Assembly (NCBI GenBank): GCA_903899845.1
Contig: CAIUKV010000138.1
Span: 1-58,998, forward strand
Length of the DNA: 58,998 nt
From: an uncultured Actinomycetes bacterium
Lineage (GTDB): Bacteria; Actinomycetota; Acidimicrobiia; IMCC26256; PALSA-555
Reading direction: 5' to 3'
In this document: piece by piece, positions 727 through 46,440 of the stretch
Position numbering within the stretch: position 1 is the first letter of the stretch
How the letters are laid out: each line of letters begins with the position of its first letter
Translations under genes and position numbers: made by a program
Notes under the pieces: model-generated
The model's database searches: none
What the model was told of the DNA's origin: nothing
The model's input: the letters and a program-made list of their open reading frames with translations, nothing else

Positions 727-2133
<1,407 letters not shown>

Positions 2134-2168
2134 GCGGAGCGGAGCCCGGCGAGCACCGTGGGGTCCGA

Positions 2169-2196
2169 CGAGCCGGGCTGAGCGGAGCCCGGCTCG
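2169..2196. terminator. Bidirectional hairpin between fumC and the peptide transporter operon
   Basis: A perfect 11-bp inverted repeat (2169-2179 with 2186-2196) with a 6-nt loop lies between two converging genes. A related 8-bp hairpin (2124-2131 with 2143-2150) overlaps the fumC stop, and its 19-nt left half is repeated exactly at 2121-2139 and 2169-2187. There is no U-tract, as is common for high-GC actinobacterial terminators. Confidence 0.6.
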
Positions 2197-2198
2197 GC

Positions 2199-3226
2199 TC
2201 AGCCGGCGCGGGGGCCGAAGTCGATCGTCTCGCCCGGGGTGAGCGGGAAGTGGCAGGCCACGTACTGACCGTCGGCGACCGCCCGCAGCTCGGGCTCCTC
2301 GGTGGCGCAGCGCTCCTCGGCCCGGGGGCAGCGGGTCCGGAACCGGCAGCCGCTGGGCGGGGCCATGGGGGAGGGGATCTCGCCGCCGAGCACCCGGCTG
2401 GTGTCGGGCCGCACGCCCGGGTCGGGGACGGGGATCGCCGCGAGGAGCGCAGCGGTGTACGGATGCGCGGGTGAGGCGTAGAGGGCGTCGGGGGCGGCCA
2501 CCTCGCAGACCTTGCCGAGGTACATCACCATCACCCGGTCGCTGACGTTCTTGACCACGGCGAGGTCGTGGGCGATGAAGACGAGGGTGAGGCCGTAGCG
2601 GGCCTTCATGTCCTCGAGCAGGTTGAGGATCTGGGCCTGCACGGACACGTCGAGCGCCGACACCGGCTCGTCGCAGATGATCAGCCTGGGCTCGGTCACC
2701 ACCGCCCGGGCGATCGAGATCCGCTGGCACTGGCCGCCGGAGAACTCGTGGGGTCGTCGTCCGGCGTTCGCGGGGTCGATGCCGACCGCCTCGAGCACCT
2801 CGTCGACCTTGGCGTCGCGCGCGGCCTTGTCGCCGATGCCCCAGATGTCGAGCCCCTCGCGCACGATGTCGCGCACCGTGCGGCGGGGGTTGAGCGACGA
2901 GATGGGGTCCTGGAAGATCATCTGCAGGCGGGGCCGGGTGGCCCGCAGCGCCTCGCCCTTGAGGGCGGTCAGCTCCACGCCGTCGTAGACGACGGTCCCC
3001 GACTTGGGCGGGGGGAGCTGCATGACCGCCCGCCCGGTGGTCGACTTGCCGCAGCCGGACTCGCCGACGATGCCGAGGGTCTCGCCCTCGAGGATGTCGA
3101 GCGACACGTCGGACACCGCGTTGACGACCAGTCCGGTGCGCCCGACCGGGAACTCCACCACCAGGTGCTCGACCCGCAGCAGCGACGCGTCGGGGCTGCG
3201 CAGATGGGCGGTGCCGCGCCCGGCCA

Positions 3227-3227
<1 letters not shown>
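2199..3227 (-). CDS. Oligo/dipeptide ABC transporter ATPase, OppF/DppF type
   Basis: Second ATPase of a peptide importer, 342 residues, acting on the cytoplasmic face. It has Walker A GESGCGKST near 55-63, Q-loop FQDP near 105, an ABC signature reading SGGQCQR (Cys where Arg is usual) near 163, and Walker B LIICDEP near 182. The C-terminal oligopeptide-transporter region has the HPYTAAL motif and a four-cysteine cluster near residues 300-330, typical of OppD/OppF. The ATG overlaps the stop of the preceding ATPase gene by one base (TGATG), so translation is probably coupled. Last gene of the operon; the substrate could be peptides or other oligomers. Confidence 0.9.
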
Positions 3228-4314
<1,087 letters not shown>

Positions 4315-4318
<4 letters not shown>

Positions 4319-5349
4319 ACGGCGCTCTCCCGGACGTCGAGGCGGGCCCGGACGACGTCACCGAGGAAGTTCAGGCTGAGCACGGTGAAGAAGATCATCA
4401 GGGCGGGGAGGAAGATGATGTGGGGCGACTCCTTGAGCCGACCGCGGTCGAGGCCGATGATGTTGCCCCACGACGGGGTGGGGGGCCGGACGCCGACCCC
4501 GAGGATGCTCAGGGTGCCTTCGGCGACGATCGCGACCGCGATGCCGAGCAGCGCGATCGAGAACATGGCGGGCAGCACGTTGGGCAGGACCTCGCGGAGC
4601 ATGATCCGCACCGGCTTGGCGCCCTGGGCCCGGGCGGCGAGCACGAACTCGCGTTGGGACCAGGAGAGGGCGGAGGCCCGGGTGATCCGCCCGAGCAGGG
4701 GGATCGACACGATGCCGATGGCCAGGATGAGGATCAGCTTCGGGTCGACCGAGCTCTGCCCGGTGGACGCCGCGGCCCCGGCGAGGAAGGCCACGAGGGC
4801 GAGGGCGAGCACCACCGCAGGGATGGCCAGGAACACGTTGAACAGCGAGGTGATCACGGCGTCGGTCCGCCGGCCGAAGTAGCCGGCGATCAGCCCGAAC
4901 GTGCCACCGAACACCAGCCCGAACAGCACGGCGCCGGTGGCGACGATCAGCGACGACCAGCTGCCGTACGCGAGCCGGGCGATCATGTCGCGGCCGTTGC
5001 TGTCGCACCCGAGCAGGAACCCGGACGCGGTGCCGTCGGTCGAGAACGGGCCGCGCCGGGCGCAGGCGACGTAGGACCGGTTGGGGTCCTTGAGCGGGAG
5101 CACGCCGAGCTGGGCGAGGACGGCGACGATCACGATGAACGCCAGCCAGCCGATCGCGAGCCAGGCGCCCACGCCCAGCCCGCGCCCGACACGACGGCGG
5201 CCTTCGCCCCCGCTCTCGACCGCGGAGACGTAGAGGTTGGCCTGCGCGACGACGAGGCCCGGCTCGAGGGATCCCTCGGCGTAGCGGTCGAGGTCCCGGT
5301 TCCCGTCGGCACCGACGGGGGGGACGGCGTCAGGCGTCGGCTCGGGCAC
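4315..5349 (-). CDS. Peptide ABC transporter permease, OppC/DppC type
   Basis: Inner-membrane subunit, 344 residues. A hydrophilic N-terminal arm of about 60 residues precedes the first helix. The DSNGRDMIARL motif near 118 is the usual OppC landmark after the periplasmic loop. Five further hydrophobic segments follow, with an EAA-loop motif (AARAQGAKPVRIMLREVLPN) that contacts the ATPases. GTG start at 5349 lies inside the end of the upstream permease gene (20-nt overlap), so the two permeases are likely made together. Member of the five-gene opp/dpp-like operon. Confidence 0.92.
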
Positions 5350-6346
5350 GGCGGATCCTCGGGTCGAGCAGGATGTAGCAGAAGTCCACGGCGAAGTTGA
5401 TCAGCACGAAGATGAAGGCCAGCACGAAGATGTAGCTCTGGAGCTCCACGTACTCGCGGGCCGCGATCGCGGTCGCGATCTGGGTCCCCATGCCCGGGAT
5501 CCCGAAGATGACCTCGACCACGATGGCGCCACCGATGAGCGTGCCGACGTTGAGGCCGGCCACCGTGAGCAGCGTGAGGCTCGAGGGGCGGAGCGCGTGT
5601 CGGAACAGGATCCGACGGTTCGGGACCCCCTTCGCCTTGGCCATGGTGATGAAGTTCTCCTGGAGCGTCGCGATCATGTCGCTGCGCAGGAGCCGCATGT
5701 AGATCGCGACCTGACCGACCGCCAGCGCGATGACCGGCAGCACCATGTACTTGAGGTGCTCCACGCTCGGGGTGCGTGCCGAGTCGAAGAGCGGGTCGAG
5801 CCAGCCCGGCTCGTAGCCCGCGGTCGGGAGCCACTTGAGGCGGGCACCGATGACGTACGAGAGCAGGAGCGCGAGCACGAAGTTGGGGAGCGCCAGGAAC
5901 CCGAACGCCGTGGTGTTGACGGCCCGGTCCGTCCGGGTGCCCGCCCGATAGGCGGTGAGCACGCCGAGGGGGATCGCGAGGGCCAGCGCCACCAGCTGGG
6001 CGTAGATCACCAGTTGGATCGACACCGGCAGCGACTGCTTGATCAGCTCACCCACCGGCTGGTTGGTCGCGTACTTCCGGCCCAGGTTGCCCTGCAGCAG
6101 TCCCGTGGTCCCCTCGCTCTTGATCACGGGGATGCCGAGGTAGTTGACGTACTGCTGCAGGAACGGCTTGTCGAGGCCGAGGTCCTTCGCGAGCGCGGCC
6201 CGCTGCTGGTCGCTGCCGAACGGGATGATCGTCTTGGCCGGGTCTCCGGGGAGCAGACGCACCAGGCTGAACGTGAAGAACGTGACCAGCAACAGGACGA
6301 TCGCCAGTTGCAGGAAACGCCGCGCGATCAGCCGGAGCGCTGCCAC
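5330..6346 (-). CDS. Peptide ABC transporter permease, OppB/DppB type
   Basis: Inner-membrane permease, 338 residues. The N-terminal helix is followed by RLLPGDPA, the conserved loop of DppB/OppB proteins. An EAA loop (AKAKGVPNRRILFRHALRP) lies near residue 240 and six hydrophobic segments are visible. The GTG start at 6346 is preceded by GGGGGG with a 7-nt gap. It lies 42 nt downstream of the binding-protein gene in the same direction. Confidence 0.92.
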   Translation of the reverse strand: MAALRLIARRFLQLAIVLLLVTFFTFSLVRLLPGDPAKTIIPFGSDQQRAALAKDLGLDKPFLQQYVNYLGIPVIKSEGTTGLLQGNLGRKYATNQPVGELIKQSLPVSIQLVIYAQLVALALAIPLGVLTAYRAGTRTDRAVNTTAFGFLALPNFVLALLLSYVIGARLKWLPTAGYEPGWLDPLFDSARTPSVEHLKYMVLPVIALAVGQVAIYMRLLRSDMIATLQENFITMAKAKGVPNRRILFRHALRPSSLTLLTVAGLNVGTLIGGAIVVEVIFGIPGMGTQIATAIAAREYVELQSYIFVLAFIFVLINFAVDFCYILLDPRIRRARADA

Positions 6347-6388
6347 CCCGAATCCCCCCGGATCGTGCTCCGCCGTCGGGCGAGCCGC

Positions 6389-8014
6389 CTACTTCTTGGT
6401 GAGGTAGAGCCCGTCGACGGGGATGCGCCCGTACAGGTACAGGGGCTTCGATCCGTCGGGCAGTGGCGCCCCGAGGATCCCGCCCATGCCCTTCGAGGCG
6501 ATGGTCCAGTCCACGAACCAGGCCGGGATCAGCCACGGCGAGCCCATCATCGCCTTGTTGAAGTCCTCGTAGGCGGCCTTCCCGTCGGCGGTGGTGAGGG
6601 CGGCCCGGCCGGCGTCGAGCGACGCCTGCACGGTGGCGTCGTCGATCTTGCCGAAGTTCACGGGGGAGCCCTTCGAGAACCAGACGTAGTTGCCGGCGTC
6701 GCCGTAGGCGGGGTCGCTGTGGAAGTTGCGCCACAGCAGCACCGAGAACTTGCCGGCCAGCGCCTCGTTGATCAGGGAGCTCTGGTCGACCTGGGCGAGG
6801 GTGGCGTTGATGCCCGCCGCCTTGGCCTGCTCCACGAGCAGCTGGGCCTCGGCCAGGCTGCCCGAGTCGTTGGTGGTCAGGAAGCTGACGTCGAAGGCGC
6901 CGCCGTTGGCCGCCTTGACCTTGGCGACCAGCTCCTTGGCCTTCTTGAGGTCGTAGGTGGGCAGGCCGGACTTCTTGAGGTAGCCCTGGCCCTTCGAGTC
7001 GATGATGCTGTTGGCCACGTCGAACAGGCCCTTGTTGCGGATCTGGTTGATCTTCTTGATGTTGAGCGCGTGGGCCAGGGCGAGGCGGGCGTCCGGGCTG
7101 TTGAACGGCGCCTTCGCCGTGTTGAGCAGGTAGTACCGGACGTCACGGTTGCCCGGGGGCTCGGTGGTGAGTTGAACCCCGGACACGCCACCGAGGCTGT
7201 CGATCGCGTCGGCCGCCGAGGTGTGCATCAGCGTCAGCTGGCCGCCCTCGAGCTGGTTCTGACGGGACGGCGTGTCGGGGATCGGCACGAACGTGATCTT
7301 GTCGAGGTAGGGCAACTTGGTGCCCTTGGCGTCCTTCTTCCAGTAGTTGGCGTTCTTCACCGCCACGAAGGACTCGTTGGTCTTCCACGTCTCGAGCTTG
7401 AACGGACCGGTGCCGATCAGGTTGGTCGCGCAGGTGCCCGGGTTGTTGATCTGGGCCGGGGCCATGATCCCGGCGCGACCGACGAGGTACAGGTAGGCCG
7501 GGAACGCCGCCCACGGCACCTTGGTCGTGACCTTGACGGTTGCGTCGTCGACCTTGCTGACGCTGGCGATGTTGCTGAACACGAACTGGAACAGCAGGCC
7601 CTTGCGCCAGGCCTCGATGTTGGCGACGATCGCGTCGGCGTTGAACGGCGTGCCGTCGTGGAAGGTGATGCCGGGGCGGGCCTTGATCGTCCACTCGTTG
7701 AACGTGGCGTTCGGGGTGACCGACTCGGCCAGGTTCGGCACGTACTCACCCTTGGTGTTGGGGGCGGTGAGCGTGTCGTAGATCGCGGCGACGACCTGGA
7801 TGCCCGAGATCGCGAGGTTGGCCTGGCTCAGGCAGTAGCCCCCGGTCGTCTCGGCCTCGAGGCCGAAGCGGACCTCACCGCCCGGCTTCGGGGTCGCGGC
7901 ACCGGCGGGTGCGGCGACGGCGGCGAGCGTGGCGGCGGCGACCGCGGCGGCGGCCACCGCGGCGATCACTCGGCTCCGACCACGACCTGCACGGCGGGAC
8001 GACTGCTGACCCAC
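6389..8014 (-). CDS. Peptide ABC transporter substrate-binding protein, family 5 (OppA/DppA type)
   Basis: Exported solute-binding protein, 541 residues, first gene of the transporter operon. A basic N-terminus and an alanine-rich hydrophobic stretch end in a likely cleavage region APAGA near residue 39. No lipobox cysteine is seen at the cleavage site, unlike many Gram-positive homologues. Family 5 landmarks include the LAESVTPNATFNEWTIKARP region and FHDGTPFNADA near 125. The GTG at 8014 follows a purine-rich GAGGGGG. Ligand not predictable from sequence. Confidence 0.9.
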   Translation of the reverse strand: MGQQSSRRAGRGRSRVIAAVAAAAVAAATLAAVAAPAGAATPKPGGEVRFGLEAETTGGYCLSQANLAISGIQVVAAIYDTLTAPNTKGEYVPNLAESVTPNATFNEWTIKARPGITFHDGTPFNADAIVANIEAWRKGLLFQFVFSNIASVSKVDDATVKVTTKVPWAAFPAYLYLVGRAGIMAPAQINNPGTCATNLIGTGPFKLETWKTNESFVAVKNANYWKKDAKGTKLPYLDKITFVPIPDTPSRQNQLEGGQLTLMHTSAADAIDSLGGVSGVQLTTEPPGNRDVRYYLLNTAKAPFNSPDARLALAHALNIKKINQIRNKGLFDVANSIIDSKGQGYLKKSGLPTYDLKKAKELVAKVKAANGGAFDVSFLTTNDSGSLAEAQLLVEQAKAAGINATLAQVDQSSLINEALAGKFSVLLWRNFHSDPAYGDAGNYVWFSKGSPVNFGKIDDATVQASLDAGRAALTTADGKAAYEDFNKAMMGSPWLIPAWFVDWTIASKGMGGILGAPLPDGSKPLYLYGRIPVDGLYLTKK

Positions 8015-40554: not shown

Positions 40555-40626
40555 GGCGGTGTAGCCGAGTGGCTCAGGCAAGGGTCTGCAAAACCCTGGA
40601 CGCGGGTTCAATTCCCGCCACCGCCT
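40555..40626 (+). tRNA. tRNA-Cys (anticodon GCA)
   Basis: Full cloverleaf of 72 nt. Acceptor GGCGGTG (40555-40561) pairs with CACCGCC (40619-40625), discriminator U at 40626. The anticodon stem AGGGT/ACCCT encloses CTGCAAA with GCA at 40588-40590. T-stem GCGGG/CCCGC encloses TTCAATT. The 3' CCA is not encoded. Its 3' end marks the edge of a lower-GC pocket, the kind of site used by integrases, though no integrase is seen. Confidence 0.95.
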
Positions 40627-40636
40627 CCGCGGGTAT

Positions 40637-40671
40637 TTAGCGAATATCACATAGTTGACTTAGCGAATATC
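40637..40671. repeat. 12-bp direct repeat directly behind tRNA-Cys
   Basis: TTAGCGAATATC occurs at 40637-40648 and again at 40660-40671 (23-nt period), starting 11 nt after the tRNA. It is strikingly AT-rich for this genome. Could be integrase arm sites, a plasmid or phage remnant, or an operator. Confidence 0.7.
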
Positions 40672-40689
40672 GGAGCGGCCGGCTCAGAC

Positions 40690-40709
40690 CCTCTGAGGGG
40701 CCTCAGAGG
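40690..40709. terminator. Hairpin downstream of tRNA-Cys
   Basis: Perfect 8-bp stem (40690-40697 with 40702-40709), loop GGGC, about 65 nt after the tRNA. No U-tract. Confidence 0.4.
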
Positions 40710-40814
40710 CTGCCTGCGGGGCCGGGCCACGGCCGTGACTGTCGTGCCCGTCCGCGCGTGGCCAGAGGTCAAATCGTGCTTGTGGGTGCGTTACATAGAC
40801 TCCGGTTTATTTGT

Positions 40815-41030
40815 ATGGCTTCAGACTTTGAGTACCTCGGTGTGCAGAATCTTCAATGCGGATTCAGGGAGAAGTCGACGGGCATGACGTACTGGCTTAA
40901 TGGGCCGGAACGGGACGACGCCCCGGTAGCGCTGCTTGACGGAGATGAAGTCGTGATCCCCACGCTGAACGGACGGGCCGTGTGGTCGATTCGCGAGCGC
41001 CGAATACTTCGATCCGAGTTTGGCGCTTGA
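40815..41030 (+). CDS. Small hypothetical protein in the low-GC pocket
   Basis: 71 residues, not recognised. A mixed sequence with EYLGVQNLQCGFR near the start and DGDEVVIPTLNGRAVWSI near 42-59, compatible with a small beta-rich domain. No Shine-Dalgarno; TACATA about 18 nt upstream could be a -10. Codon use has many A/T third positions, unlike neighbours outside the pocket. The reading frame stays free of frameshift beyond its TGA through two further stops to 41414, so it may be the 5' part of a decayed gene. Confidence 0.45.
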   Translation: MASDFEYLGVQNLQCGFREKSTGMTYWLNGPERDDAPVALLDGDEVVIPTLNGRAVWSIRERRILRSEFGA

Positions 41031-41414
41031 CCGGCGGGGTCACGGGGGCTGAGCGAATGTGCGGGGATCCCGCCTAGTGCACGCATCTGGGTACTCAACC
41101 TTCTGGAGCTTCCCGAAACCCTTCTTCGGCGTTCTCGCGGCGAGGGGCTTGTGACCTCTGATGGCCCAGAAGCCATTGATGAGAAGGTGAGGCGCCTCCG
41201 CGAACACAACTACTCGTAGCCCTGCTTCGCCGTCGTTGAAGGGTCTCGAAATTGGCTCCTGTGCTATCAGCGTCACATGAGCGAGCCGGACTACGTCGTC
41301 TACTGCGGGACCGAGGTCGATCTCTACTTCCTTGGAGTACCGATCCTTGATCGCGGATGGGAAGTGGAAAGCACGCAGATGTCCATCGCTGATGTCATTC
41401 GTGAGGCTCCATGA
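41031..41414 (+). pseudogene. Possible degenerate coding remnant with in-frame stops, ending in a 45-codon ORF
   Basis: The frame of the 71-residue ORF continues with protein-like sequence: 41031-41219 (ending TAG) includes ARIWVLNLLELPETLLRR and DEKVRRLREHNYS, and 41220-41414 includes CFAVVEGSRNWLLCY and DYVVYCGTEVDLYFLG. The first part has no plausible start codon. The last part could be expressed as a 45-residue ORF from the ATG at 41277; its TGA overlaps the ATG of the next gene (ATGA). A competing minus-strand ORF (41040-41498) exists. I favour a decayed or partly expressed gene, but cannot settle it. Confidence 0.35.
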
Positions 41415-42124
41415 CCGCCGATAGTGACGCGCTTCATCAGCTATCGCACGGCAAGCGCAGTGATCGTCTGCGCCTCGATACGCAGTTGCCAGCGCCAACG
41501 GTTGCAGCGATGAGGGCAGTGCTGGCTAACACGGCGCAAGCCCGAGCGGACAGATCCCTTGCCGCCATGTGGAACGCAACAAGTGGCGAGCCAGACCTTC
41601 AAGATGCCGCCCACGCGATCGCGCTGAGGCTGTGGCTCAACCGATGGGTCTGCCGAATCGCATACCCCAAGGACGACGTCGACGTCTTCGTCGTCAGTCT
41701 GAATGAATGGGCGAAGCGTTGGTCCGCAAGGCTCCCGTCGCGCCGTGCACCACTCGCGGACTTGCCCGATGACGCACTCGACGCGCTTGGGCAGGCGTAT
41801 GACGACCTCCAACGCGCGCCGGCGTCGGTTGTTCGACGAGACCGGCTCCGCCGGATCGGGCCCACTGCGGCGGCCAAGCTCCTCTTTGCCCTGCGCCCAA
41901 ACGGCGTGACTCCTTGGGACCGGCAAATCGCAGCGACCGTAGGCGGAACGACTCGGCTGCACTTCGTTGCGCATCTCACACGATGTCGCGCCTGGGCGTC
42001 CGCCCTGGCCGCCGAGTGTGCTTCGCTGGGAGTCGACGACCTCGCCGTGTACGTAGGACGGCCCGATTCGTCGGTGGCGAAGTTGATTGATGAGTGGCTC
42101 TACCTCACCGTCACGCGCGCATGA
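41411..42124 (+). CDS. Unrecognised 237-residue protein in the tRNA-adjacent pocket
   Basis: Largely helical, family not recognised. The C-terminal half reads RLRRIGPTAAAKLLFALRPN, VTPWDRQIA, a HLTRCRAW element and GRPDSSVAKLIDEWLY; the KLLFALRP-x-VTPWDR segment recalls proteins with a helix-hairpin-helix fold, where a WDR element follows the hairpin, but this is a weak resemblance. The N-terminal 60 residues are polar and basic. Translation start overlaps the upstream 45-codon ORF (ATGA). Codon use and GC are lower than flanking genes, suggesting acquisition. A hairpin follows at 42203. Confidence 0.7.
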   Translation: MTADSDALHQLSHGKRSDRLRLDTQLPAPTVAAMRAVLANTAQARADRSLAAMWNATSGEPDLQDAAHAIALRLWLNRWVCRIAYPKDDVDVFVVSLNEWAKRWSARLPSRRAPLADLPDDALDALGQAYDDLQRAPASVVRRDRLRRIGPTAAAKLLFALRPNGVTPWDRQIAATVGGTTRLHFVAHLTRCRAWASALAAECASLGVDDLAVYVGRPDSSVAKLIDEWLYLTVTRA

Positions 42125-42172
42125 GGAACGAGGGTGCGCGATTGCTCTCGTGCTTATCCGTTCCCCAGGATG

Positions 42173-42184
42173 GTTCACGTGAAC
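42173..42184. promoter_or_regulatory. 12-bp palindrome
   Basis: GTTCACGTGAAC is a perfect inverted repeat 49 nt after the 237-residue gene. Could be a regulator site or part of a transcript end; no gene starts close by. Confidence 0.35.
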
Positions 42185-42202
42185 GGACCCTGAACGCAAG
42201 CT

Positions 42203-42226
42203 GGCCCACCTCGAGGGGAGTGGGCC
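42203..42226 (+). terminator. Hairpin after the 237-residue gene
   Basis: 7-bp stem GGCCCAC/GTGGGCC (42203-42209 with 42220-42226), 10-nt loop, followed by GCTTTCG. The short T run supports a terminator on the plus strand. Confidence 0.5.
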
Positions 42227-42731
42227 GCTTTCGCCCCAAGGGTCAGGTGCATTCGCGTTAGGACCACGACGGACGGCTCCCTGGGGTTAGCGGTGCCGAT
42301 TCTCCACTAGGCGCCCATCTGGACGCGCGCGGCAACGGCAGTGCTACCGCGGAGCCGTGCCGTGGTGTGCATGGGGGCAAGGAACCCGCGAAAACCGGGC
42401 GTGCCCAACGCGAAAACGGCTGATCAGCCCCCTGAAAGTCGCCGGTCAGAGGCGCAGGTCAGGGCGCATGCCGACGATTTCGCGTAACAGCCCTCTGCGG
42501 AGGGTCGTCGATCCGGACGGCCACGGCGACCCCCTCGTCGTGACGTCGCACCTGGCGCTCCATGTGCACCACCGGGGCCTCGAGGGCGTGGTGGTGTCGG
42601 TCGATGTCGATCGTCCGGCCACCCGTCCCCGGGTTGCGGGGCGCCCCGGGCGCGTGTCCCACCCGGGGCGCACAATGACCTCGGAGTCCCGGTCCGGCGG
42701 AGGCACGGGGCGGGCCCGTGGTGAGACCCCC

Positions 42732-42767
42732 GGGTGACGCGCCGAGTGACGCGCCGGGAGACGCGCA
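42732..42767 (+). repeat. Three 12-nt repeats before the 282-residue gene
   Basis: GGGTGACGCGCC, GAGTGACGCGCC and GGGAGACGCGCA in tandem, ending 15 nt before the ATG at 42783. They adjoin the GGAAGGAGAAGG ribosome site. Confidence 0.65.
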
Positions 42768-42782
42768 GGAAGGAGAAGGACC

Positions 42783-43631
42783 ATGATCCTCGACCGACCC
42801 GGTGACACCGAGTTCGACCCCGTGGCCGAGTACGGCGCCATCCGGATCCTGGCGGCGGGGGCGGCGCAGGCCTGGACCGTCGCGGTCGGCCTGGCCGCGG
42901 CCGTGAGCGACTTCCGGATGCGCCAGAGCGACGTGGAGCCGACGCCGGTGCCGGGCCTCGCCGAGCTCGTCGACCGGATCACCGAGGACTTCACCGACCT
43001 CAGCGCCATCCTGGACGCCGCCCTGTCCGTGGCGGAGTCCCCCGCAGACGCCGTGGCGCCCGTCGGGGTCGGACGGCTCGGCCGCGCCCGGCTCCTGCAC
43101 GCCCGCATCGGGACCACGACCCGACGTGTCGCCCAGGCGGTGCTCGGTGCCACCAGTCTCGGTGCCGGCACCGACGACACCCTTCGCCTCGAGCTCGCGG
43201 CCAGCGTGGCCCTGACCGACCGTTCGGCGGTCCCGCTCGTGGCCGACGGTCCGGTCGAGCTGTTCGCAACCACCCGTGACGACCTCGTCCTCGAGGTCGC
43301 CGGCGTGGTCGCCCGCCTGCTCGTCGACTGGGGCGGGGCCGTGGCGCTGCGCACCGCCGACGGGGCCGGTGTCGACCTCGAGGTCGACGGCGACGTCGTG
43401 GTCGTCACCCCCCATGCCCTGCCGCCCGGTCCCGGGATCCAGCGCTGGTCCTCCCCGGTGGTGATCGCCGACCTCGCCGGCGGGGTGGTGGCCACCCTCG
43501 TCGAGGGCGCCGGGATCGAGACCGCGCTCGAGATCGAGGCTACGGTGATCGAGCCCCACCCGTCCCGCCGTGCCCATTCCGACCCGTTCACCGGCACCGT
43601 TGCCGACCCGGAAGGAGCCGACGATGCCTGA
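42783..43631 (+). CDS. Unknown protein coupled to an HD hydrolase; possible degenerate kinase-like ATPase fold
   Basis: 282 residues, not recognised. The N-terminal half (to about 130) is helical, including LAELVDRITEDFTDLSAILDAALSVAES. The C-terminal half alternates strands and helices: LVLEVAGVVARLLVDWGG, DGDVVVVTPHALP, then VVIADLAGGVVATLVEGAG and IEATVI. This order faintly resembles the HATPase fold of histidine kinases with the ATP motifs lost, which is speculation. ATG at 42783 is supported by GGAAGGAGAAGGACC. Its last 8 nt overlap the start of the HD-hydrolase gene, so the two products are made together. Confidence 0.65.
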   Translation: MILDRPGDTEFDPVAEYGAIRILAAGAAQAWTVAVGLAAAVSDFRMRQSDVEPTPVPGLAELVDRITEDFTDLSAILDAALSVAESPADAVAPVGVGRLGRARLLHARIGTTTRRVAQAVLGATSLGAGTDDTLRLELAASVALTDRSAVPLVADGPVELFATTRDDLVLEVAGVVARLLVDWGGAVALRTADGAGVDLEVDGDVVVVTPHALPPGPGIQRWSSPVVIADLAGGVVATLVEGAGIETALEIEATVIEPHPSRRAHSDPFTGTVADPEGADDA

Positions 43632-44625
43632 CCGTCCACCGATCCTCGACGAGCTGGGCGTCGACGGCGCCATGGATCCCGCGGCGCACGGGGTCTACCT
43701 GAAGGCGCTGACCTACGCGGTCGCGCTGCACACCGAGGTTCGCAAGGGGGGCCGCGAGGTCCCGTACCTCTCCCACCTGCTCGACGCGTCGAGTACGGTC
43801 TGGGAGGACGGCGGCACGGTCGAGGCCGCGGTCGCCGCACTTCTCCACGACTCGGTCGAGGACAAGGGCGAGACCGGCGCCCGCCTCGCCGCCACGTTCG
43901 GCACGACCGTGGCCGAGATCGTCGTGGGCTGCACCGACTCCGGCGAGGTGGGCGACGGCCCAAAGCCGCCGTTCCTCGTGCGGAAGGCCGAGCACCTCGA
44001 CCGGCTCCGGGTGCGAGCCGATCGTGTGGCCGCCGGCACGGGCTCGGCGGTCGATCTCGGGGTGCTGCAGGTCACCGGGGCCGACAAGTGCTCCAACCTC
44101 CGAGCCATCCTCGGCGACGTCGAGCAGCACGGACGGGAGTACCTACGCCACTTCAAGGGTGGGCTCTTCCTGACCACCTGGTACTACGAGACGGTGATCG
44201 GCATCCTCGGGCTCGGATTCCCTGCCGCCGGTGATGCGCCGTCGTCGTCGCGGGTGGTCTGCGCCCTGCGGCGGGAACTGCCGCGGCTGCAGGCCGTGCG
44301 CGACGACGCCCTCGAGGAGATCGGGCCTGCGGCCGCTCGGATCGCCGCGGTCCTCCGTGCGGCGGGCGGCCCGCGCGTGGGATCGCTCTCGTCACCCTCG
44401 CTGCCCGCCGGCGCGGAGGCCGACCTCGTCGCCCGCGAGGCGGCGTACCGGCTGCACCAGGCGGGGGCGACCGCCGCCGGCATCGACGGCGCGGACGCGG
44501 AGGGCGAGCGGGTGGTCCGGACGCTCTTGGCCCAGCTCTACGAGCCCGGGGGCAAGGTGGTCGACCCGGCCGCCGACAGGCCACTGGCCGTCGCCGTCGT
44601 TGCCGCTTCGGCGGCCCCGGCCTGA
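43624..44625 (+). CDS. HD-domain (p)ppGpp-hydrolase-like protein, RelA/SpoT HD family
   Basis: 333 residues. The RelA/SpoT-type HD domain occupies about 20-190. Metal ligands are in YLSHLLD (His near 50), LLHDSVED (His-Asp near 73) and the VTGADKCSNL segment near 150, matching the small (p)ppGpp 3'-pyrophosphohydrolases (MESH1-type). There is no synthetase or TGS/ACT domain. The remaining C-terminal part (about 200-333) is helical and unassigned. Predicted to remove (p)ppGpp or a related nucleotide. The start is inside the upstream unknown gene (8-nt overlap). Confidence 0.85.
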   Translation: MPDRPPILDELGVDGAMDPAAHGVYLKALTYAVALHTEVRKGGREVPYLSHLLDASSTVWEDGGTVEAAVAALLHDSVEDKGETGARLAATFGTTVAEIVVGCTDSGEVGDGPKPPFLVRKAEHLDRLRVRADRVAAGTGSAVDLGVLQVTGADKCSNLRAILGDVEQHGREYLRHFKGGLFLTTWYYETVIGILGLGFPAAGDAPSSSRVVCALRRELPRLQAVRDDALEEIGPAAARIAAVLRAAGGPRVGSLSSPSLPAGAEADLVAREAAYRLHQAGATAAGIDGADAEGERVVRTLLAQLYEPGGKVVDPAADRPLAVAVVAASAAPA

Positions 44626-44681
44626 GGCGTCGGGCCGGCCGCACGGAGGTCCGGTTCCCGGCCCGGCCGGTCCGGACTGCC

Positions 44682-45434
44682 TCAGTCGGCGTTGCGGGGC
44701 CCGCGCGTCTCGGGTGTCGTGAGCGCGGATGGTTGCAGGGTGCCCGCCACGATTGCCGCCGCCACGTCCGACAGGTTGACGTCGTTCTCGCGAGCGTGGT
44801 GGCGGAGCGCAGCGAAGGCGCCCTCCATGTCGAGGTGTTGGCGCTCCGCGATGATGCCCTTCGCCTGTTCGATCGTGACGCGCGTGTGCCACGCCGAATT
44901 GACCTGATCGGCCAGTTCGGTCGACCGGAGACTCGCTCGGTACTGCAGGATCGCGATCGTTGCGATGTCGGCGAAGGCACGAGCGGCCCGGAGGCTGTCC
45001 GCTTCGAAGGTCTCTCCGGTGGACTGGAACAGGTTCAACGCGCCGATCACGTGGTGACGCAGGCGAAGGGGCAGCGCGTAGACGGACCCGAACCCGCTGG
45101 AGAGCGCCTCGGCGGCGAACAGCGGCCACCGGTCGGTCGCACCCTCGAGGTCGTGGTGGCTGACGACCTCGCCGGTCTGGAAGCCCTCGAGACAGGGCCC
45201 TTGCTCGTTCTGCAGCTCGAACAGCTCGAGGAGTCGCATCTGCTCGCTGGCCGAGGCGATGACGCGCAGGACGCCGTCGGGGCCGGCGAGCATGAGCCCC
45301 GCCGCGCTGGCGCCGAGGATGGAGACGCAACGGCCGGTGGGCGTGATCAAGATCTCGATCACGTCGAAGTCGGCGACGAGGTCGTCGGCGAGCGCGACCA
45401 TCGCTTCACCGAGCTCGGCTTGTATGGATTTCAC
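44682..45434 (-). CDS. GAF-ANTAR transcription antitermination regulator
   Basis: 250 residues: a GAF sensor domain (about 10-165, with ASEQMRLLELFELQNEQGPCLEGFQTGE) and a C-terminal ANTAR RNA-binding domain (about 180-240; VTIEQAKGIIAERQHLDMEGAFAALRHHAREND). ANTAR proteins bind dual hairpins in nascent mRNA and prevent termination; GAF ligands are unknown here. The GTG at 45434 has AGGAG 6 nt upstream and begins in front of the GAF domain; longer in-frame starts give an Arg-rich leader that does not look coding. Lies next to a second, frameshifted copy of the same architecture. Confidence 0.88.
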   Translation of the reverse strand: MKSIQAELGEAMVALADDLVADFDVIEILITPTGRCVSILGASAAGLMLAGPDGVLRVIASASEQMRLLELFELQNEQGPCLEGFQTGEVVSHHDLEGATDRWPLFAAEALSSGFGSVYALPLRLRHHVIGALNLFQSTGETFEADSLRAARAFADIATIAILQYRASLRSTELADQVNSAWHTRVTIEQAKGIIAERQHLDMEGAFAALRHHARENDVNLSDVAAAIVAGTLQPSALTTPETRGPRNAD

Positions 45435-45540
45435 GAGCGCTCCTGCCGGCTCGGTGTCGCTACTCCGCGAGCGCGGACGCTCGGTGGCGAGGCGGTGGCG
45501 CAGTTTACGCCGTGGTGCGTGTCGACGGGACGGGCGTCGC

Positions 45541-46265
45541 TCATGGGTTCGGATCGATCGCATCGTGAGGATCGAAGCGGAGTCGGAGGCCCACCACCCG
45601 TCGCGCGACCTCCGCCAACGGCGTACCCGTTCGGAAGGCATGGGCTCGAAGTCGGACCAGTGCCTGCTCGACCGTCACGTCGAGCTGGACGGACATCATC
45701 CCCGCGGCCTGGTGGATCACCCAGTGGAAGTTCGCGCCCGCCGCGAGCTCGGTGGCCAGGTCTCCGGGTGGTGCGCCGGCCTGCACGAGCAGGATGATCT
45801 CGGCGGTGAGGTCGGCGAGGACGAGCGCGTCGGCGTGCTGCTCCACGCTGAGCCATCCGGGCTGGGTGCGGTAGAGGTTGAGGGCGCCGAGACCCGCAGC
45901 ACCGACGCGGATCGGAAAACCGAAGACGGCCCGGACCCCCGCTGCGATCGCGGGGGGCTGAAGGCGATCCACCGAGGCGTCGTCGGAGACATGAGGTCCG
46001 GTTCGAGCGCCGGCCGCCCGTCGTTGCAGGCGTCGATGCACGGCCCTTCCCCGAGCGTGAACTGCAGTTCCTCGATGAGCGCCGCGAGGCCGGCCGTGGC
46101 GCCGAGGGGACCGGACGGTGCGCCGTCCCGGAAGAGCATGATGCCTGCGCCGTCGGTGGCCGTGACGTCGGCGCAGGCCTGGCAGAGCTGCTCGATGCGA
46201 AACTCCGACTGACCGGGCTGGACCAGCCGACCGAGCAGGCGGAGGCGGCGCTCTGGTTGACCCAT
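45541..46265 (-). pseudogene. GAF-ANTAR regulator with a frameshift
   Basis: Two reading frames together give one GAF-ANTAR protein. From the ATG at 46265 the first frame encodes the GAF start (LRLLGRLVQ to GEGPCIDACNDGRPALEPDLMS). From about 45985-45990 coding shifts to the other frame (DDASVDRLQPPAIAAGV to the ANTAR part, VTVEQALVRLRAHAFRTGTPLAEVARRVV). Removing one base from the run read TCTCC at 45985-45989 joins them. Either a genuine frameshift mutation or a base-call error. It is the neighbour and probable paralogue of the intact regulator at 44682-45434. Confidence 0.75.
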
Positions 46266-46440
46266 CGTTGGTGTCCGGGCCTTGCCTGCGCTGCCGGGCC
46301 CCCGAGCGAGTCACCAGATCCCGACGGACGGTACCAGGGGGGACGCGGTCGGCTTCCCGGCCCCGAGGGTCGGCCTGGGTGGACGACGTCGGCGACGGTG
46401 CGTTCACCGGCAGGGAGCGCCGGGCCCGTCGCCGGTCGGC

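Follow-up and report, generated by a model that had tools for sequence, protein, structure and literature searches.

A small alarmone hydrolase (SAH) that stands alone and a second protein, probably TY-Chap-like, are encoded by two overlapping genes in the 58,998-nucleotide stretch of DNA analysed here (the window), which is part of a 2.9-Mb Acidimicrobiia assembly. We give roughly even chances to the reading that these genes form a two-gene module, in which a metal-dependent SAH is coupled to a TY-Chap-like binding protein and the whole is carried as an accessory in a variable slot beside a tRNA-Cys gene. A working partnership of the SAH and the chaperone-like protein is plausible, and it is testable.

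The first gene (42783-43631, forward strand) is an open reading frame of 282 residues, whose product we call protein 1; the second (43624-44625, forward strand) begins at the ATG at 43624 and encodes the SAH, a RelH/MixSpo-like HD_4 protein of 333 residues. The two share 8 nt, as the original prediction had claimed; in this overlap, ATGCCTGA (43624-43631, forward strand), the ATG of the SAH gene and the TGA of the protein 1 gene fall together. The motif GGAAGGAG that stands shortly upstream of the SAH start is the SAH gene's own ribosome-binding site, and the same motif lies upstream of the protein 1 gene. Codon-position GC is of the coding type throughout both frames, the tail of the SAH included (GC3 0.86-1.00 versus GC2 0.42-0.64). 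Both genes and their overlap are real; with the genes confirmed, the earlier interpretation as a whole is partly supported. The overlap and the separate ribosome-binding site also speak against chance packing, that is, against the possible but rather doubtful alternative that two accessory genes without a joint function have come to lie in one tRNA-Cys hotspot and overlap through compact, high-GC packing.

HD_4 (E 3.4e-14, Pfam) is the only domain detected in the 333-residue hydrolase, with no synthetase, TGS or ACT domain beside it, and the nearest named NCBI families are RelA/SpoT. The closest solved relative in a PDB sequence comparison is RelH of Leptospira (7QOE, E 1.3e-24), followed by RelH of C. 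glutamicum (7QOC, 6e-13) and a Listeria protein (4YF1, 2e-11); all three have been grouped as MixSpo/RelH (PMC10434055). The best three PDB matches are thus MixSpo/RelH members, and the hydrolase may be nearer to these than to other SAH subgroups. H51, H75, D76, E79, D80, D154 and N158 are kept and are invariant across 30 aligned homologues. R40-K41 is present as well, shifted by one residue in the alignment, with a MESH1-like spacing. The protein therefore has two marks of a RelH/MixSpo-type SAH, HD_4 alone and the conserved metal and catalytic residues (H, HDxxED, D...N and RK), and the proposal of a RelA/SpoT-type HD hydrolase holds. Since these residues are kept in all 30 homologues, the enzyme is likely to be active, with Mn2+-dependent removal of alarmones as the predicted reaction. 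Its substrate range may extend beyond (pp)pGpp, because other SAHs can hydrolyse NADPH and pppApp too (PMC9765508).

The unassigned C-terminal domain noticed earlier is likewise there: a tail of about 110 residues (approximately residues 221-333; 44284-44622, forward strand) that is common to no other SAH we found. Homologues in Acidimicrobiia are mostly 190-250 residues long, and none of them matches the last 110 or so residues. The predicted structure of the hydrolase as a single protein (pLDDT 43) is too poor for use. In the SAH tree the window hydrolase is a long unplaced branch, apart from a well-supported clade formed by the SAHs of its own family, a position that fits foreign origin or fast change. 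A search of phages returned SAHs from Listeria and Bordetella phages alone, all of them distant. The genome of the window also carries an HD_4 paralogue on contig C6 (L042:2920-3669, forward strand), whose catalytic residues are gone (VD stands in place of HD, among other losses); it is a degenerate pseudo-hydrolase adjoining a gene for a luciferase-like monooxygenase. In genome G015 an SAH (HD_4, 2.6e-17) and a polyphosphate kinase 2 (PPK2, 3e-61) are fused in one frame of 512 residues (L021:598-2133, reverse strand), which is a direct link between alarmones and polyphosphate. Two further SAHs, L129:3348-4376 of G039 and one on L116 of G022, have in common an extra C-terminal domain, CFIGG-x-M-x-TSYRVHLD..., that has no Pfam name.

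Numerous SAHs of bacteria are accompanied by toxic synthetases (PMC9765508), and an SAH might on that precedent be the antitoxin of a toxic small alarmone synthetase. The gene content of this genome makes such a role exceedingly improbable. It has one full-length Rel, on another contig, which contains HD_4 with LLHDSVEDT and the only RelA_SpoT synthetase domain in the genome; a domain search found no second alarmone synthetase, and protein 1 has no synthetase domain. It follows that the SAH is neither the sole hydrolase of the cell nor the antitoxin of a small synthetase. No small alarmone synthetase gene neighbours the pair, and a toxSAS toxin-antitoxin pair is largely refuted.

Protein 1 has no match of its own in Pfam, NCBIfam or PADLOC, and to that extent the description of it as a protein of unknown function was apt; it is not, on the other hand, an orphan. 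Seven homologues, all from Acidimicrobiia, were found in about 395 genomes of the class, and none outside the class in a sample of Actinomycetota; a plasmid search gave no match. Scans of genome contigs returned nothing with the single sequence and one contig, the same as that of G036, with the alignment. The homologues and a structure model divide the protein into an N-terminal helical region (about residues 13-145) and a C-terminal region (about 160-250) that is probably TY-Chap3-like. Throughout the family, the helical region contains the conserved stretch AAQAW..A.GL....FR and is followed by T-x-x-E-L-x-x-E-[LV]-A-G-...-R-L and then by strands.

The likeness to TY-Chap3 comes through intermediates. 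Two homologues, L002 and L003, match TY-Chap3 (PF22552) in their last third with Pfam E values of 0.0013-0.0036 and with scores, 18.4 and 19.9 bits, that stay below the cut-off of 27 bits. An iterated profile built on the TY-Chap3 genes of the class reaches them with E values of 4e-10 and 2e-9, values that lean towards a match in that later rounds absorbed these same two sequences. Protein 1 in turn matches L002 and L003 at E 5e-7 to 8e-6, so that it is joined to TY-Chap3 by two matches covering adjoining parts and not the same part. Compared directly with PF22552, the window protein gives no match, and a profile comparison that left out L002 and L003 yielded a 21-column match to the last helix (P 0.045, marginal). 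Because protein 1 alone is unmatched and this last comparison is marginal, we regard it as only probably TY-Chap-like: a putative chaperone-like binding protein, judged by its relatives, and not a member of TY-Chap3. Even so, it places an unannotated protein family of Acidimicrobiia near the YbjN/T3SS-chaperone superfamily, whose fold is believed to serve in ATP-independent protein binding (PMC5398634).

The C-terminal half of protein 1 had originally been likened, faintly, to a kinase ATPase fold, and one could imagine a sensor whose degenerate, GHKL-like domain controls the hydrolase. In agreement with this, the structure model shows a helix followed by strands towards its C terminus, but the model, made from two sequences, is weak (pLDDT mostly below 50 in the C-terminal half). 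A fold search with it was uninformative (best E 0.19) and returned no match to the circularly permuted TY-chaperone fold either; no PDB sequence match was found. Protein 1 has no GHKL match in Pfam or NCBIfam, nor do its homologues in Pfam; a GHKL or histidine-kinase-type ATPase was looked for and rejected, as no HATPase profile match was obtained and no N/G-box motifs are seen in the alignment. Since two homologues carry TY-Chap3 at the C terminus, a chaperone-like binding protein is the likelier identity, and it explains the region better; we think a kinase-like sensor very improbable.

The exact pair is not conserved. No second copy was found in any genome searched, and each of the seven protein 1 homologues lacks an SAH neighbour, the kind of finding that the original prediction had itself named as its refutation. 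What recurs is a looser arrangement. Among the SAH loci elsewhere, 45 in number and 502 kb in all, five (those of genomes G302, G022, G385, G239 and G121) have a genuine TY-Chap3 gene at most 3 kb from the SAH gene. The TY-Chap3 gene stands upstream of the SAH on the same strand in G302 (52 bp away, as part of a TY-Chap3+TY-Chap1 gene) and in G022 (60 bp or less), and 54 bp downstream on the same strand in G385, so both gene orders occur; in G239 and G121 the distance is within 3 kb. From the class-wide density of TY-Chap3 (34 genes in 296 genomes) 0.02 such loci would be expected against the 5 observed (Poisson P about 3e-11; about 7e-8 with the density raised fivefold). The TY-linked SAHs, together with that of the window, are scattered on the SAH tree; 6 changes are needed, at least 5 of them forced by strongly supported branches. 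SAH and TY-Chap3 genes therefore recur as neighbours far above chance, and this is the more general finding, which rescues the idea of a coupled pair in a broader form than was first proposed.

The same data bear on whether the window genes are neighbours and nothing more. That alternative gains from the seven homologues without an SAH neighbour, from the 40 of 45 SAH loci without a TY-Chap neighbour, and from G239 and G276, in which SAHs and relatives of protein 1 are both present on different contigs. Against it stands the proximity of SAH and TY-Chap3 genes in several separate SAH lineages, three times no more than 60 bp apart, although a preference of both gene types for the same islands may explain the neighbourhood without any function. 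The surroundings of the G302 and G385 loci do contain genes of nuclease, helicase and SMC/Lamassu-like type. L146 of G302 (2380-7335) holds in a row the TY-Chap3/TY-Chap1 protein, the SAH and an SMC/Lamassu-like ATPase, a candidate defence locus, and L138 of G385 (1106-5724) a NERD-UvrD helicase, the SAH, TY-Chap3, an unassigned gene and an HNH nuclease.

The window pair itself sits in a variable segment of 5.8 kb (40629-46433), whose left boundary is the 3′ end of a tRNA-Cys (GCA) gene predicted by ARAGORN (40555-40628, forward strand). In the sister species G001, the segment is replaced by about 1.6 kb: the alignment, 94.5% identical in the flank, ends exactly at 40628 and restarts at 46434, and an HNH-endonuclease-like gene, recognised by eye, occupies the slot (L083:6478-7899). 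This difference in content between sister species again favours neighbours without joint function. An island is seen, but we found neither a repeat of the tRNA end nor an integrase at the segment, and a mobile element was rejected. Directly after the tRNA-Cys gene runs a low-GC3 stretch of orphan open reading frames (40629-42124), including one at 41411-42124 for a protein of 237 residues without significant family match. On the other side, two GAF/ANTAR genes adjoin the pair, as originally described; both are on the reverse strand, convergent with the pair, and are not part of its unit. The first is at 44682-45641; in the second (45541-46407) the GAF and ANTAR portions are not read in one and the same frame, which may reflect a pseudogene, a programmed shift or an assembly error.

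If the two-gene module is real, we infer its working as follows, from catalysis and binding by protein 1 to the identity of the partner and a role in conflict or stress. The hydrolase would remove the 3′-pyrophosphate from (pp)pGpp-type nucleotides and, like other SAHs, might also act on pppApp or NADPH. Protein 1, as a divergent TY-Chap-like protein, would bind proteins in a chaperone-like, ATP-independent manner and, through overlapping translation, would be made in step with the hydrolase. Most likely it would bind either the hydrolase itself, with the lineage-specific C-terminal tail as a candidate site, or the clients of the hydrolase, and by doing so would stabilise, localise or restrain local alarmone removal. 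The module would be an accessory of the tRNA-Cys slot, resembling conflict modules that combine TY-Chap proteins with phosphatases. In a larger context, we speculate, while holding it to be unlikely, that SAHs of Acidimicrobiia have repeatedly been recruited with TY-Chap proteins into accessory conflict-type modules, in which TY-Chap directly binds and controls the hydrolase, here by way of its unique tail. Such a hydrolase of alarmones or nucleotides would be gated by a chaperone and would serve in defence against phages or under proteotoxic stress. A TY-Chap partner, if recurrent, would be a concrete, testable regulator at the protein level for alarmone hydrolases that stand alone and have no antitoxin role, and would tie the hydrolysis of alarmones (or NADPH) to accessory conflict islands.

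Among known systems, the hydrolase is closest to RelH/MixSpo (C. glutamicum 7QOC/7QOD, Leptospira levettii 7QOE and Listeria Lmo0812 4YF1), with which it shares HD_4, residues of the HD1-HD6 type and a catalytic core of the same length and order. It differs in its C-terminal tail of roughly 110 additional residues, in a small insertion around residues 132-147, in its long tree branch and in its genetic coupling to a TY-Chap-like gene. The family of protein 1 resembles TY-Chap3 (PF22552), YbjN/AmyR/DR1245 and the T3SS class I chaperone fold in its C-terminal pattern of helix, strands, W...P and helix, and L002 and L003 match the second half of the TY-Chap3 profile; protein 1 itself, by contrast, escapes detection by that profile, carries an additional helical region at its N terminus and is not linked to a secretion system.

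The combination of an alarmone-type HD phosphatase with TY-Chap is itself already known in outline (PMC9503650). A 2022 survey predicted conflict systems centred on ADP-ribosylglycohydrolase (ARG) and ADP-ribose, which may hold an alarmone-related HD phosphatase and TY-Chap1-3; it also lists calcineurin-like phosphatases and WYL regulators among their parts (PMC9503650). On that model, the HD enzyme would act on ADP-ribose-derived or other nucleotides, and TY-Chap, once phages had attacked, would handle proteins that are damaged or ADP-ribosylated. Several loci recall these systems: in G094 a gene for a calcineurin-like phosphatase comes 56 bp behind the protein 1 homologue, a relative in G003 lies near a WYL regulator, and SAHs stand beside the TY-Chap1/3 protein and SMC/Lamassu-like ATPase of G302 and the NERD-UvrD helicase of G385. 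A gene very similar to the G094 phosphatase (recognised by eye) adjoins a TY-Chap3 gene in G059, from which it follows that the protein 1 family and TY-Chap3 share partner types. We nevertheless consider an ARG-type function here distinctly unlikely. Both ADP-ribosylglycohydrolase copies of the genome are on other contigs, 4 of the 12 genomes compared have none, the window genes have no PADLOC match, and the hydrolase appears from its residues to retain all features of a true alarmone hydrolase. The window pair shares with ARG-centred systems the occurrence of phosphatases, including the alarmone-related HD phosphatase, with TY-Chap proteins in variable loci; it differs in being a two-gene unit whose flanks show no ARG gene, no Nudix/WYL regulator and no Macro/NADAR gene. 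As its ARG gene is unlinked, it is not a member of those systems but a variant or a parallel recruitment, and the locus is best read as an ARG-free TY-Chap/SAH module.
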